Of a stretch of DNA of 64,000 nucleotides, positions 22,362-37,870 are shown piece by piece. Under the pieces are notes generated by a model. That model did no database searches. It had not been told where the DNA came from and was given only the letters and a program-made list of their open reading frames with translations. Positions within the stretch are counted from its first letter, which is position 1. Each line of letters opens with the position of its first letter. The stretch spans positions 62,001-126,000 of the forward strand of contig JALTVI010000066.1 in NCBI GenBank assembly GCA_027049035.1. The letters are read 5' to 3'. This DNA comes from Sulfurovum sp. (lineage in GTDB: Bacteria > Campylobacterota > Campylobacteria > Campylobacterales > Sulfurovaceae). Position numbers and translations under genes: made by a program.

Positions 22362-23684
22362 TTAGAACAACGACTCCTTACACATATCTTCCAATGAATA
22401 CCCCTTATACATTACCGTATAGCCTGGATGCTTTTGAATCAGCTTTTGCGCTTTCTTCTTCAACAATGCCAAATCGATCTTGTCAGGGTTGCGTTTCACT
22501 TCCGCAACAAGCATCATTTTTTCATCGTCATTAACCGCAACGATGTCTATTTCGTTTTGGTTTCCTTTTTCCCAATAGGTGCCTATGGCGGAGAATGCTC
22601 CAGAGGCTTTCAGCCTTTCTATAAAGTACTTTTCCAAAAACCTGCCACTGTAGGTTGCGAAGTCTCTTTGGACAATAGATCTGACATAAGCGTAGTTCTC
22701 TATCTCAATGGCAGAACGGTGTTTGTAGATAAAGCAAAACCAGAAGTGAAAAAAGTTGTCTATGATCTCGTATTTGAGTGTACGGCTGCCCTCTTTGGCG
22801 AAGATGGGCTTGACCTTTTTGATGATTGTATATTCGTTCTCCAGCCTATCCAGATAGCCGCCGATATTTTTTCCCAATATGCTTTCCATCTCCGAACGTG
22901 ATGTTTTGGAGGAGGCAATGAGCGAAAGAATAGAGAAGTAGGTAGTATACTCTTTACCAAACTCCTCGATGAGCAGGTTTTTCCCCTCGTCGATAAAGAG
23001 CGAGTTTTCATCAAATATCAAATCGAGTTGCGTCTCAAGTGTGAAGGCTCGGCTATCTACGAACAGTTCCACATATTTGGCGACACCGCCGGTCAAGATG
23101 TAAAAAGAGAGCAGATCTTCGTTGCTGTAACCGGGATGGTTGTCTTGCAGGATCTCTTCGAGTGTCTTTACACTAAAAGGCTTGAGGTGTATCTTGTGAT
23201 TGGCGCGACCAAAAAGAGGCTCTTTTCTATCTTCAAATATCTTTTTCATCAAAGAGTAGATCGAGCCGCTTAGCACCAGATTCATCTTGCCTGCATCTTT
23301 GTAACTGTCCCAGATATTTTGCATATAGGAATAGACGGTATCGTTGATGTGCAAAAACTCCTGAAACTCATCGATGACAAGGGTGAAAGGTATGGTTTTG
23401 GAAAGTTCCATGAGATAGGCAAAGAGCTCATGGAACCTGCTAAAGGTACCGAAAATATTGACATTCAGTTCATGCTGCACAATGGTGACAAACTCTTCAC
23501 AAAGCAACGCTTCATTTTTTCTTGATACAAAGAGATAGACCCTTTTTGCATAGGCTTCTTTGATAAGTTTCGTTTTTCCAATCCGTCTTCGACCTACAAT
23601 GACCGTCATACGTGAAGCGTGCCTGGCATCTTCACCGATCTTTCTCAAATAGGCTAACTCTTTGTCCCTGTTGTAAAACTTCAT
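22362..23684 (-). CDS. AAA ATPase with C-terminal DUF234 nuclease-like domain
   Basis: 440 aa. Walker A is GRRRIGKT (31-38) and Walker B VIDEF (103-107); sensor region VLSGSIYSLM. A winged-helix-like middle follows, and the C-terminus has EIDIVAVNDD and VAEVKR (about 372-395), the D-ExK layout of PD-(D/E)XK nucleases. It belongs to the archaeal-type ATPase/DUF234 family whose function is unknown. It is a lone gene with an AT-rich palindromic region directly upstream, which suggests self-regulation. Confidence 0.85.
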   Translation of the reverse strand: MKFYNRDKELAYLRKIGEDARHASRMTVIVGRRRIGKTKLIKEAYAKRVYLFVSRKNEALLCEEFVTIVQHELNVNIFGTFSRFHELFAYLMELSKTIPFTLVIDEFQEFLHINDTVYSYMQNIWDSYKDAGKMNLVLSGSIYSLMKKIFEDRKEPLFGRANHKIHLKPFSVKTLEEILQDNHPGYSNEDLLSFYILTGGVAKYVELFVDSRAFTLETQLDLIFDENSLFIDEGKNLLIEEFGKEYTTYFSILSLIASSKTSRSEMESILGKNIGGYLDRLENEYTIIKKVKPIFAKEGSRTLKYEIIDNFFHFWFCFIYKHRSAIEIENYAYVRSIVQRDFATYSGRFLEKYFIERLKASGAFSAIGTYWEKGNQNEIDIVAVNDDEKMMLVAEVKRNPDKIDLALLKKKAQKLIQKHPGYTVMYKGYSLEDMCKESLF

Positions 23685-23696
23685 GGAAAAACCTTA

Positions 23697-23733
23697 TATA
23701 GTAATTTAAGTTACTGTAATTTATATTACTATA
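23697..23733. promoter_or_regulatory. Nested palindromes upstream of the DUF234 ATPase
   Basis: AGTAATTTAAGTTACT (23700-23715) is a near-perfect palindrome. A second, weaker one covers 23715-23730. The outer arms TATAGTAAT (23697-23705) and ATTACTATA (23725-23733) form a perfect 9-bp inverted repeat around both. The block begins 13 bp before the ATPase start codon, where an operator would overlap the promoter. Confidence 0.55.
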
Positions 23734-32338: not shown

Positions 32339-35157
32339 GCCAGCTCTTTGGCAAGGTACTCTCCGGTGTAAGAGCCGGTCTTGTTATACTCCGCAGCCAG
32401 TTTCTCAGGACTTCCCTCAGCGATGATCTTACCGCCTTTGTTACCCCCTTCAGGCCCCATATCGATAATATAGTCGGCATTCTTGACCATATCGAGGTTG
32501 TGTTCGATGACAATCACCGAATTGCCCAGGTCGACCAGGTGGTGCAGTACACCTGTCAGTCTGTCCACATCGGCAAAGTGCAGTCCGGTTGTCGGCTCAT
32601 CGAGGATGTAGAGTGTACGCCCTGTGTCTTTGCGGCTAAGCTCCTTGCTCAATTTGATACGCTGCGCCTCACCGCCCGAGAGTGTCGTGGCGTTCTGTCC
32701 TAGTGTGATGTAGTCAAGTCCTACATCCTTGAGTGTTTTGAGTTTGGCAGCAATGGCGGGAATGGCTTTGAAGAACTCCAGTGCCTCCCCCACACTCATC
32801 GCCAGCACATCGGCGATCGACTTGCCTTTGTAAAGCACTTCAAGCGTCTGGGCATTGTAACGCGTGCCGTGACAGGCGTCACACTCAACCAGCACATCAG
32901 GCAGAAAGTGCATCTCGATCTTGATCTGCCCGTCTCCCTGACACTTCTCACAGCGTCCGCCTTTGACGTTGAATGAAAAACGCCCTACCTTGTAGCCGCG
33001 CAGTTCGGCTTCTTTGGTCTGGGCGAAGAGCTTGCGTATCTCATCCATAATACCGGTGTAGGTAGCGGGGTTGGAGCGTGGCGTACGGCCGATGGGACTC
33101 TGGTCGAGGTAAATCACCTTGTCGAGCTTCTCCAGCCCGTTGATCTCCACACCATCGACCTTGTTGACCTTTTTGGCGTGGTTGAGCAGTTCACGCGCCA
33201 CCGGCAGCAGTGTCTGAAGTATGAGTGAGCTCTTTCCACTTCCACTGACACCGGTAATACAGACAAAGTTGTGTAGCGGAATGCGTGCCGAGAGGTTATC
33301 GATGTTGTTGAGCGTGACATTCTTGATCTCAATCCACGCCTCCTGCGGCCTGTCGTGCGGATAGCTGATGTTTTTTTTGCCGTTGAGATACTGCGCCGTA
33401 AGCGTTTTTGCTTTGAGGAGCTTCTTCTGATCACCTGCAAAGACCACTTCGCCACCGAACGCTCCCGCACCCGGACCGATATCCACGATGTAGTCCGCTG
33501 CCATAATGGTCTCTTTGTCGTGCTCTACGACAATGACGGAGTTGCCCTTCTCCTTGAGCGAGTTGAGCGTACGGATCAGCTTCATCGTATCGCGCTCATG
33601 CAGTCCGATGCTCGGTTCATCGAGCACGTACATCACGCCCGTCAGTCCAGAACCGATCTGCGAAGCGATACGGATACGCTGCGCCTCTCCGCCGGAGATG
33701 GTACGCGCGTCACGGCCGAGGGTGATGTAGCCCAGTCCCACATCGTAAAGAAAAAAGAGACGCTCTTTGATCTCTTTTAGGATCGACTCGGCAATCATCT
33801 TCTGCTGTTCGGTAAGATGTGAAAAGTTGTCATCATCGGCAAAGTAGGCGTAACTCTCCTCGATGGGCATATCGATAATATCGGCGATGTTATGCCCCTC
33901 GATCTTGACAGCAAGCGAACGCGGACGCAGGCGGTGCCCCTGACACTTGTCACACACCTTTTCGGTCATATATTCGCTCATATCCTTTTCATCTTTGAAC
34001 ATATCCTGCGCGAACTTCACGACACCGGGCCACTCGCGTTTGAGCTTGTGGCGCTTCCAGGTAAAGTCGACCATGGAGCCGTTGCCGTAAAGAATGGCTT
34101 TCTGCTCATGCGTCTCCAGCTCGCCGTAGGGTTTGTGAATATCTATACCGTTCTGCTCACAAAAGGCGTTGAGGAACTTCGTGTAGTAGCTCTTGTTGAA
34201 GCCGTACATGATCTTCACCGCACCCTTGTCGATGCTCAAATCGGGGTCTATCACCTTTTTGAGGTCGATCGTGTAGCGGATCCCCAGCCCGTCACAGGCG
34301 GGGCATGCCCCTTTGGGGGAGTTGAACGAAAAGCTTACGGGCTCCAAAGGCTCAAAGCTGATCTTACAGTCAAAACAGGCAAGGTGCTCGGAGTAGTGGT
34401 AATCTTTGCGCTCCAGACCCAGCTCCTCCCAATTGAGCACCTCGATCTCCATCTCGCCGTAACTCTCCTTGAGTGCTTTTTCGACATCCTGGCCTATTCT
34501 GTCACGGCTCTCCTCTTTGACCACCACACGGTCGATGACCACTTTGATGGTGTGCTTTTTGGTCTTACTCAACTCTATCTCGTCATCCAGACGCACCATC
34601 ACCCCGTCGATCATCGCACGCACATACCCCTTGTGGCGCAGCGATTCGAGCATATCGGCAAAGGTTCCCTTCTTCTCCTTGACCAGCGGCGCCATGATGA
34701 CAAGCTTGGCACCTTCAGGAAGCTTGAGCACCTCTTCGATGATATCTGCCGCGCTCATGGAGGAGATGGGCTTGCCGCACTGGTGACAGTACTGTCTTCC
34801 CACACGGGCAAAGAGCAGACGCAGGTAGTCATATATTTCGGTAATGGTCCCAACTGTAGAACGCGGGTTTTTGGAAGTGGTCTTCTGGTCGATAGCAATG
34901 GCGGGGGTAAGCCCCTCTATCTTGTCGACATCGGGCTTGCCCACACGTCCGAGGAACTGGCGCGCATAGCTTGAGAGCGACTCGATGTAGCGCCGCTGCC
35001 CCTCGGCATAGAGCGTAGAGAACGCCAGCGTCGACTTCCCCGAACCCGAAATACCGGTAATGACCACCAGCTCGTTCTTGGGTATCTCGATGTCGATGCT
35101 TTTGAGGTTGTTCTCACGCGCGCCGAAAACCTGAATGGTATCTTTTTTCTGTTTCAA
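32335..35157 (-). CDS. uvrA: Excinuclease ABC subunit A
   Basis: DNA damage recognition ATPase of nucleotide excision repair, 940 aa. It has two ABC ATPase modules: Walker [10 protein letters not shown] (35-43) and GVSGSGKSS (about 645), both with LSGGEAQRI signatures. Zinc modules include CPACDGLG and [18 protein letters not shown]. The start codon is TTG 35157, with GAGGAAGACGA immediately upstream and no nearby ATG. Lone gene on minus. Confidence 0.96.
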
Positions 35158-35302
35158 TCGTCTTCCTCTGTGGGGTGTAAAAAATCAAGCAGTGATTATA
35201 GCATATTTTGGAGATACAATCTGCTCTTTCTGCAGACATCCGCCGGTGTGTTATCATGGAGAGTGAAATAATAATAAAGTTACGTTGTTATTTTTTAATT
35301 TT

Positions 35303-35386
35303 TTTGACTTAAATATCAAAATAGTATACTATAAATTTGACATATATATCAAAAATTTGTATAATATTTCTGATTTTAATGTCAAA
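35303..35386 (+). promoter_or_regulatory. Consensus promoter embedded in three 18-bp palindromes at 33-bp pitch
   Basis: Palindromes TTTGACTTAAATATCAAA (35303-35320), TTTGACATATATATCAAA (35336-35353) and TCTGATTTTAATGTCAAA (35369-35386) have centres exactly 33 bp apart. TTGACA (35337-35342), 17 bp, TATAAT (35360-35365) is a perfect sigma-70 promoter with its -35 inside palindrome 2. A second set, TTGACT (35304-35309), 17 bp, TACTAT (35327-35332), starts in palindrome 1. Palindrome 3 covers the expected transcript start. This looks like a strong promoter under tight repression. Confidence 0.8.
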
Positions 35387-35397
35387 AAGGAACCGTT

Positions 35398-36579
35398 TTG
35401 TTTGAAGATATTAGAGAGTTGCAGCAACTTATCTTAAAAAAACAGAAAAATATTTATAAACGATATTTTTTCGATGACTTAGCGTTTGACAGGCTGAGCG
35501 GCGTATTGGGGGCACGCGGCGTCGGTAAAACCACCTTTTTACTCTATCTGCTCAAAAAAAGCCCTTTATCTGCAGCTGAAAAACTCTACGTGAGTGCCGA
35601 TTCCATCAAAATAGACTCTCTTTTTGAACTTGCAAAAACGTTTCAGAGAGATGGAGGCAAACTGCTCATTATCGATGAAATTCACAAATACTTCGGTTTT
35701 GAACGAGAGTTAAAAAAGATATACGACTTTCTGGAACTGCAAGTCATTTTCAGCGGCAGCAGTGCCTTGCAGATCGACAATTCAAAAGCCGATCTCAGCA
35801 GAAGAGCAGTACTACATGAGATTGAAGGACTGAGTTTCAGGGAGTTTTTGGAGATGAAACATCATCAGAAACTGCCGCATTTTTCCCTTGAAGAGATTGT
35901 AAAAAACCATATCGATATAGCGTTTGAGTATAGCAACAGTTTCAAACCAAGCGATTTTACGGAATATTTGGAGTTTGGCTACTATCCTTTCTACTTTGAT
36001 CGATCAAGCAACTATAAAATAAAGTTGAACGAAACGATAAATACAGTACTTGAAGTTGATATCCCCTCAATCTTCAATATTGAATACAGCAGCATAAAAA
36101 ACCTGAAAAAGCTCCTTCTTGTTTTATGCCAAAGTGTCCCCTATACTCCCAATATTACACAACTGCTTAACAAAATGGAGATGGGAAGCGACTACAGAAC
36201 ACTCTATCGCTATTTTGACTATCTGCACAGAGCAAAAATAGTCACTCTCATTCGCCCTGCAGGTAAACAGGACAACATCTTTTCCAAACCTGAAAAGATA
36301 TATTTCAACAATGCAAACCTCTATTTTGCCTATTGTGACAATCCAAATAGCGGAACGATCAGGGAGGTCTTTTTTAAATCCATGCTTTTTAAGCATACAC
36401 TGGAAATTCCCAAGAAAGGAGACTTCTTGGTAGATAAGAAGTATCTGTTCGAAGTCGGAGGCAGAAATAAAAGCTTTAACCAGATAAAAGGTCTGGAAAA
36501 CTCCTTTATCGCAGCCGACAATATTGAAATAGGAAGCGGCAATAAAATACCGCTTTGGCTGTTTGGCTTTTTATATTGA
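35398..36579 (+). CDS. AAA_14 / DUF4143 ATPase
   Basis: 393 aa. Walker A is GARGVGKTT (38-46), Walker B LLIIDEIH (89-96) and the sensor segment FSGSSALQ (118-125). LSRRAVLHEIEGLSFREFLE is diagnostic of this family. A winged-helix region and the DUF4143 C-terminal domain follow. The family is widespread and its function is unknown. The start is TTG 35398 with AAAAAGGAA upstream and no ATG in reach. It is solitary and controlled by the triple-palindrome promoter, so it may bind its own operator. Confidence 0.87.
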   Translation: MFEDIRELQQLILKKQKNIYKRYFFDDLAFDRLSGVLGARGVGKTTFLLYLLKKSPLSAAEKLYVSADSIKIDSLFELAKTFQRDGGKLLIIDEIHKYFGFERELKKIYDFLELQVIFSGSSALQIDNSKADLSRRAVLHEIEGLSFREFLEMKHHQKLPHFSLEEIVKNHIDIAFEYSNSFKPSDFTEYLEFGYYPFYFDRSSNYKIKLNETINTVLEVDIPSIFNIEYSSIKNLKKLLLVLCQSVPYTPNITQLLNKMEMGSDYRTLYRYFDYLHRAKIVTLIRPAGKQDNIFSKPEKIYFNNANLYFAYCDNPNSGTIREVFFKSMLFKHTLEIPKKGDFLVDKKYLFEVGGRNKSFNQIKGLENSFIAADNIEIGSGNKIPLWLFGFLY

Positions 36580-36596
36580 GATGATTTTACTTCTTT

Positions 36597-37870
<1,274 letters not shown>

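Follow-up and report, generated by a model that had tools for sequence, protein, structure and literature searches.

What controls an ATPase gene whose consensus promoter is overlaid by three regularly spaced palindromes? The question is raised by a locus of Sulfurovum sp. (contig JALTVI010000066.1) within an analysed stretch of 64,000 nucleotides, below called the window; all coordinates are positions in this 64-kb window and refer to the (+) strand unless stated otherwise. The gene (35398..36579, (+) strand; open reading frame (ORF) 35398-36576) starts with TTG and encodes a PDC-S01-type AAA_14 ATPase of 393 aa, the proposed autorepressor. Comparison of its promoter and protein with those of its homologues suggests, with a probability that we put at roughly 0.8, that the ATPase represses its own gene via private operators which co-evolve with it.

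Operator dyads over the promoter

Three dyads of 18 bp each precede the gene on the (+) strand: TTTGACTTAAATATCAAA (35303..35320), TTTGACATATATATCAAA (35336..35353) and TCTGATTTTAATGTCAAA (35369..35386). Their centres, 35311.5, 35344.5 and 35377.5, are exactly 33 bp apart, just as an earlier note on this DNA had claimed. The main promoter, TTGACA-17-TATAAT (35337..35365, (+) strand), matches the sigma-70 consensus at 12 of 12 positions; its -35 (35337-35342) is indeed contained in the middle dyad, as the same note had it, and its -10 (35360-35365) sits between dyads 2 and 3. The left arm of dyad 1 contains the -35 of a weaker upstream promoter-like sequence, TTGACT-17-TACTAT (35304..35332, (+) strand; hexamers at 35304-35309 and 35327-35332), which had also been pointed out, scores 9/12 and repeats the promoter-operator unit with a shift of 33 bp. 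As to the third dyad, previously placed on the start point, it does begin 3 bp past the -10 and should lie over the expected transcription start, the position of the start itself being deduced from that of the -10. A Shine-Dalgarno-like AAGGAA (35387..35392, (+) strand) is located 5 bases before the TTG codon; together with the alignment of ATG or GTG at this position in most homologues, it makes the TTG start credible.

The dyads are imperfect (6/9, 8/9 and 6/9 paired positions for dyads 1, 2 and 3, respectively), their conserved part being the outer arms TTTGAY/RTCAAA. The triple dyad scores 62, and with all pitches of 20 to 60 considered, no other triple of the 64 kb scores above 48. The exact motif TTTGAY-N6-RTCAAA has 7 copies genome-wide (92 contigs), two of which are window dyads (in the remaining dyad a single position does not match), whereas all five others are situated within coding ORFs; the operator is thus present in no other promoter of the genome, and the dyads are not widespread before unrelated genes, a case that the earlier note had considered. 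A divergent promoter-like sequence, TTGATA-18-TATACT (10/12; 35323-35352, minus strand), which faces uvrA, is accounted for by the palindromic nature of the dyads. The Rfam search of positions 35150-35450 gave no match.

Paired dyads in the ATPase family

Paired dyads around the -10, or around the -7 in Bacteroidota, at 32-33 bp are a rule of this family (PDC-S01) across several phyla. Related ATPases were found in 27 of the 60 relatives searched, with a patchy distribution and up to nine copies per genome, and homologues beyond these occur in Bacteroidota, Aquificota (Hydrogenothermaceae), Chlorobi, Gammaproteobacteria and others. Several homologues are decaying, being broken into several fragments, some of them with stops (G030:C2:42764-43989, G269:C1:794753-795485).

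For each gene, the preceding 120 bp were searched for pairs of 20-mers that are palindromic and resemble each other, and the best pair was scored (score J), while 415 promoters of other genes from the same loci, as well as AT-rich control promoters and dinucleotide shuffles, served as controls. Of 131 discovery homologues, 91 had their best pitch at 32/33 bp, versus 36 of the 415 controls (Fisher p about 5e-42), and J of at least 29 was reached by 38% of homologue promoters versus 1.9% of the controls (3.8% of the AT-rich ones). After clustering at 65% identity, the 32/33 pitch was found in 55/81 versus 17/131 AT-rich controls (p=3e-16). A hold-out set of 64 new Campylobacterota homologues, for which the predictions had been set down beforehand, gave a best pitch of 32/33 bp in 39 homologues (17 of 24 clusters) and of 32-34 bp in 44. 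The homologues, which according to the earlier note might have lacked the dyads, thus carry them in pairs across several phyla. Most of them have two dyads, not three. Between the paired dyads, 62 of 73 Campylobacterota promoters have a hexamer that resembles the -10 (5/6 or more of TATAAT) and is perfect in 30, compared with about 20% of far-upstream stretches, and in Bacteroidota the second dyad often starts at the TTTG of a TAnnTTTG (-7) element.

Nearly all close homologues possess paired dyads, whose sequence varies by subfamily and whose pitch is kept. The expectation that TTTGAY-N6-RTCAAA would recur at 33 bp in homologues therefore held for the pitch, but for the sequence only in the closest relatives (L009, L010, L011), with the dyad TTTGATATACATATCAAA. 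The dyad arms are TTRGAC/GTCTAA in the L012-type, TTTAGGTT/AACCTAAA in the L071-type, TAAATGNNTA/TANNCATTTA in the L023-type and TATTAAATG/CATTTAATA in the L053-type, and the Bacteroidota dyads include TTGCTTATTGTAATAAGCAA and TTGCGGAATGCAATCCGCA; GC-containing dyads, e.g., TTGCGGAATGCAATCCGCA and GGATTGCAATCC, exist among the homologues. The paralogues of a single genome, G058, have seven different operators, with the pitch kept.

The 33-bp rule is claimed for the family of the window ATPase, because wider Campylobacterota DUF4143 families have other repeat geometries; upstream of the DUF4143 ATPases L152-L154 from this phylum, the repeats follow a 23-bp pitch, not 33. Few controls score high at 32/33, and several of those that do are other AAA_14/DUF4143 ATPases; moreover, 32-33-bp repeat pairs were observed upstream of AAA_14/DUF4143-type ATPases of Bacteroidota (L104 2997(+), L105 3466(+), L122 8374-9741(-), L129 7770-9017(-) and L137 865(+)), which suggests that the rule reaches beyond the window ATPase family, to some Bacteroidota DUF4143 ATPases. 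A second ATPase of the window (22362-23684, minus strand; ATPase_2 plus DUF234) has two dyads just before its ATG (about 23699-23731), GTAATATAAATTAC and GTAACTTAAATTAC, with about 17 bp between them, and the same layout is present in its relatives L166, L167 and L169; the wider superfamily may thus have a second geometry of autorepression.

Covariation of the operator with the predicted recognition helix

The AlphaFold2 model of the ATPase contains, with high confidence, a predicted winged-helix domain (36085..36306, (+) strand; residues 230-303; predicted local distance difference test score, pLDDT, 91) with a predicted recognition helix (36193..36231, (+) strand; residues 266-278; pLDDT 91). 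We compared the log-odds distance between operators with the distances in 387 seven-residue segments of the protein after removal of overall protein divergence. In the discovery set, the top segments were those of residues 260-272, with a partial r of 0.26 (all segments: mean 0.02, sd 0.07); this peak is higher than that of any of 200 permutations and does not leave the recognition helix when any one clade is dropped. The best-covarying residues, 261-272, make up the beginning of that helix. The hold-out genes alone gave a peak at 264-272 (r=0.33-0.45). The model, which was built without the covariation result, places its recognition helix over the same peak. Two disjoint gene sets peaking on the predicted recognition helix are the strongest evidence, at the level of sequence, that the ATPase itself would read the dyads. 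Residue-base mutual information was rejected as a measure, because phylum acts as a confounder in it (the TTG end of Bacteroidota shows up at half-site position 8), and the signal that it gave for the recognition helix at half-site positions 3-6 is only suggestive.

With regard to the domains, the previous label of the protein, AAA_14/DUF4143, is correct in its first half: the match to Pfam AAA_14 (PF13173) is well above the cut-off (E=1.3e-21; 77.4 bits vs 27), but the window protein gave no match to DUF4143 (PF13635; gathering score 28.1) even at E<=1, although 14 of 22 relatives match it at E<=0.1. The AAA_14 P-loop domain (35500..35850, (+) strand; residues 35-151) bears the Walker motifs GARGVGKTT and DEIH, which are invariant or almost so in the aligned relatives. 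The Pfam nSTAND models were below the cut-off for the window protein, and it has no Pfam match to a ParA-type ATPase domain. When the AlphaFold2 model was compared with solved structures by VIA Z scores, the closest were the archaeal ATPases SSO1545 (2fna; Z 15.3 over 260 residues) and PABY2304 (2qen; Z 15.2), with NB-ARC/CED-4 at about 14, and for this reason the ATPase-winged-helix part is regarded as a STAND-like switch module; the order of domains in the model, ATPase core, helical part and winged-helix domain, is of the STAND type. The C-terminal domain (36313..36576, (+) strand; residues 306-393; pLDDT 88.6) has the invariant residues D342, E352, K358 and Q362, a putative nuclease-like (PD-(D/E)XK) signature. 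D342-x9-E352-x5-K358 is invariant across 59 sequences, with a lysine spacing that differs from the canonical E-x-K; the fold search for this domain gave no significant match, PD-(D/E)XK nucleases being among the weak top matches.

Probable autorepression, its alternatives and its meaning

According to the proposed mechanism, an ATPase dimer would read each 18-20 bp dyad via the recognition helix of its winged-helix domain. Two dimers (three in the window), about three helical turns apart, would bracket the -10, cover the -35 and the start region and thereby shut out RNA polymerase, and neighbouring dimers on one face of the DNA could cooperate. Each family member would have a private operator sequence co-evolving with its own recognition helix; therefore, promoter, operator and repressor could pass from genome to genome as one self-contained unit, and paralogues that share a cell would not need to cross-repress each other. 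A circuit of this kind is well suited to genes that are mobile and build up many copies. The idea of the earlier note that the ATPase binds its own promoter via a winged helix thus gains support from the winged helix-turn-helix model, the covariation of the helix and the lack of a recurrent linked gene. DNA binding, dimers, repression rather than activation, and cooperativity are what the sequence patterns lead us to infer. Control by ATP/ADP through the STAND-like module may be supposed by analogy with RepA of repABC plasmids, and the final role, be it in defence or as a selfish element, would presumably be executed via the C-terminal nuclease-like domain.

Several observations weigh against this interpretation. 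In about 30% of the homologues the best pitch is not 32/33; one clade (recognition helix ISRVKLYDY, with SRVKLYDY shared where read; L023, L024, L045, L047, L049, L050, L083, L231, L232, L238), whose members share TAAATG-type dyads, has a pitch of 40-47 bp, mostly 43-44 and most often 44, i.e., about one helical turn extra. Among paralogues within genomes, none of 52 operator pairs are similar, which agrees with orthogonality but is not above chance. An earlier, cruder operator distance gave only weak covariation, and the log-odds distance was then adopted, before the discovery result was obtained; for this reason the hold-out set was fetched and analysed with the improved distance. The top single columns with the crude distance were already R267 in the recognition helix and R286 in the wing. 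Finally, label permutations leave phylogeny in, and the better controls are the comparison of segments with one another, which share the phylogeny, and the hold-out set.

The gene environment bears on the alternatives. The ATPase gene is flanked by uvrA and a 3' remnant of gdhA, both on the minus strand, and the claim that no regulator gene is adjacent was borne out. The gdhA sequence (36597-37028, minus strand) encodes 143 aa of the C-terminal part of glutamate dehydrogenase (ELFV_dehydrog profile positions 115-241) and is probably a gene remnant. At 19 other uvrA loci no ATPase was detected in the flank read (only 140 bp in one case), and no element ends can be defined at uvrA, because the flanks differ among these loci. 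A search for a recurrent neighbour among 157 neighbour genes of 82 loci revealed no cluster of more than three, and the largest one (three) consists of other ATPases.

An activator role of the dyad-bound ATPase, or use of the dyads mainly as an iteron, partition or transposition site with incidental repression, is improbable in our opinion. Plasmid iterons and partition sites do pair repeated dyads with a dedicated ATPase, and the genes in question are patchy and multi-copy; however, the dyads are located on the -35, the -10 and the start rather than upstream of the -35, with the -10 bracketed in the above 62/73 promoters, and neither a recurrent partner gene nor element ends emerged from the comparison of loci. 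Equally hard to accept is control of the ATPase genes by an unlinked host regulator, separate from the ATPase, that would bind to the dyads. Such a regulator would not have to adjoin the gene, and the dyad-binding protein is putative, yet the operators of paralogues differ within one genome in spite of the common pitch, they track the recognition helix of the ATPase, the same arrangement recurs in distant phyla, and the operator is found in no other promoter of the genome. It is barely conceivable that the dyads are non-functional AT-rich, promoter-derived low-complexity sequence: the dyad region has a G+C content of 24%, and AT-rich promoters inflate palindrome scores, but the dinucleotide shuffles and AT-rich control promoters, the sharpness of the pitch at 32/33, the existence of GC-containing dyads (TTGCGGAATGCAATCCGCA and GGATTGCAATCC, for instance) and the hold-out covariation all speak against it.

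PDC-S01 is a candidate single-gene defence family of PADLOC, with an ATPase fused to a PD-(D/E)XK-type member; it reportedly ranks fourth among the defence families of prokaryotes by frequency (some 29,000 copies in bacteria and 10,000 in archaea), and validation is pending for most PDCs (PMC12988326). The window protein matches the PADLOC profile at E=1e-23 over residues 31-305, and so do its 21 aligned relatives (22/22), placing all of them in this predicted defence family; what the present analysis adds to it are the self-operators and their co-evolution with the helix. In function, the nearest parallel is provided by the ParA/RepA autorepressors of repABC and similar plasmid operons, ATPases acting on their own private palindromic operators: RepA of repABC plasmids has its own DNA-binding part and a separate palindromic operator for each paralogue, and ADP favours its specific binding (PMC4492784). 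In contrast to them, the window ATPase is an unrelated AAA_14 protein whose winged helix is C-terminal, and is a single gene without a ParB or replication partner, with two or three 33-bp dyads around the -10. SSO1545, PABY2304 and NB-ARC/CED-4 share the arrangement of ATPase and winged helix seen in the model. In NB-ARC proteins the winged-helix domain is a nucleotide-switch element, whereas that of the window ATPase would read DNA. DnaA, an AAA+ ATPase, also binds its own promoter and represses itself, but it has another family and DNA-binding domain and conserved universal boxes instead of private operators. RptR, a small locus-encoded repressor, acts on repeated palindromes in a defence-locus promoter (PMC12255303). 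Like it, other small defence-island repressors combine repeated promoter palindromes with a locus-encoded repressor; RptR is a small protein in its own right and has a single conserved site, whereas here the putative effector would be the repressor and the sites diversify. In open-licence papers we found no prior report of PDC-S01 regulation, of its tested mechanism or of autorepression by STAND, AAA_14, DUF4143 or DUF234 ATPases. Autorepressing ATPases are already known, but the open literature that could be searched yielded no description of fixed-pitch private operators co-evolving with a STAND-like AAA_14 winged helix throughout a candidate defence family that is among the most common ones.

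A further, speculative and rather unlikely extension is that the winged helix acts both as a nucleotide-gated switch and as a private DNA reader, so that the operator-bound ATPase would be parked and silent, and its release by an invader signal or by titration with extra operators would derepress the gene and free the C-terminal nuclease-like domain. If this were true, the roles of sensor, repressor and effector would all fall to one protein, and the rapid divergence of the operators would let the many genomic copies stay independent, like the immunity types of temperate phages. As the geometry is fixed and the sequence diversifies, the presumed DNA target of the protein is known for each examined subfamily, and binding, structure and release signals can be tested; the family would represent a set of repressor-operator pairs, which may be mutually orthogonal.
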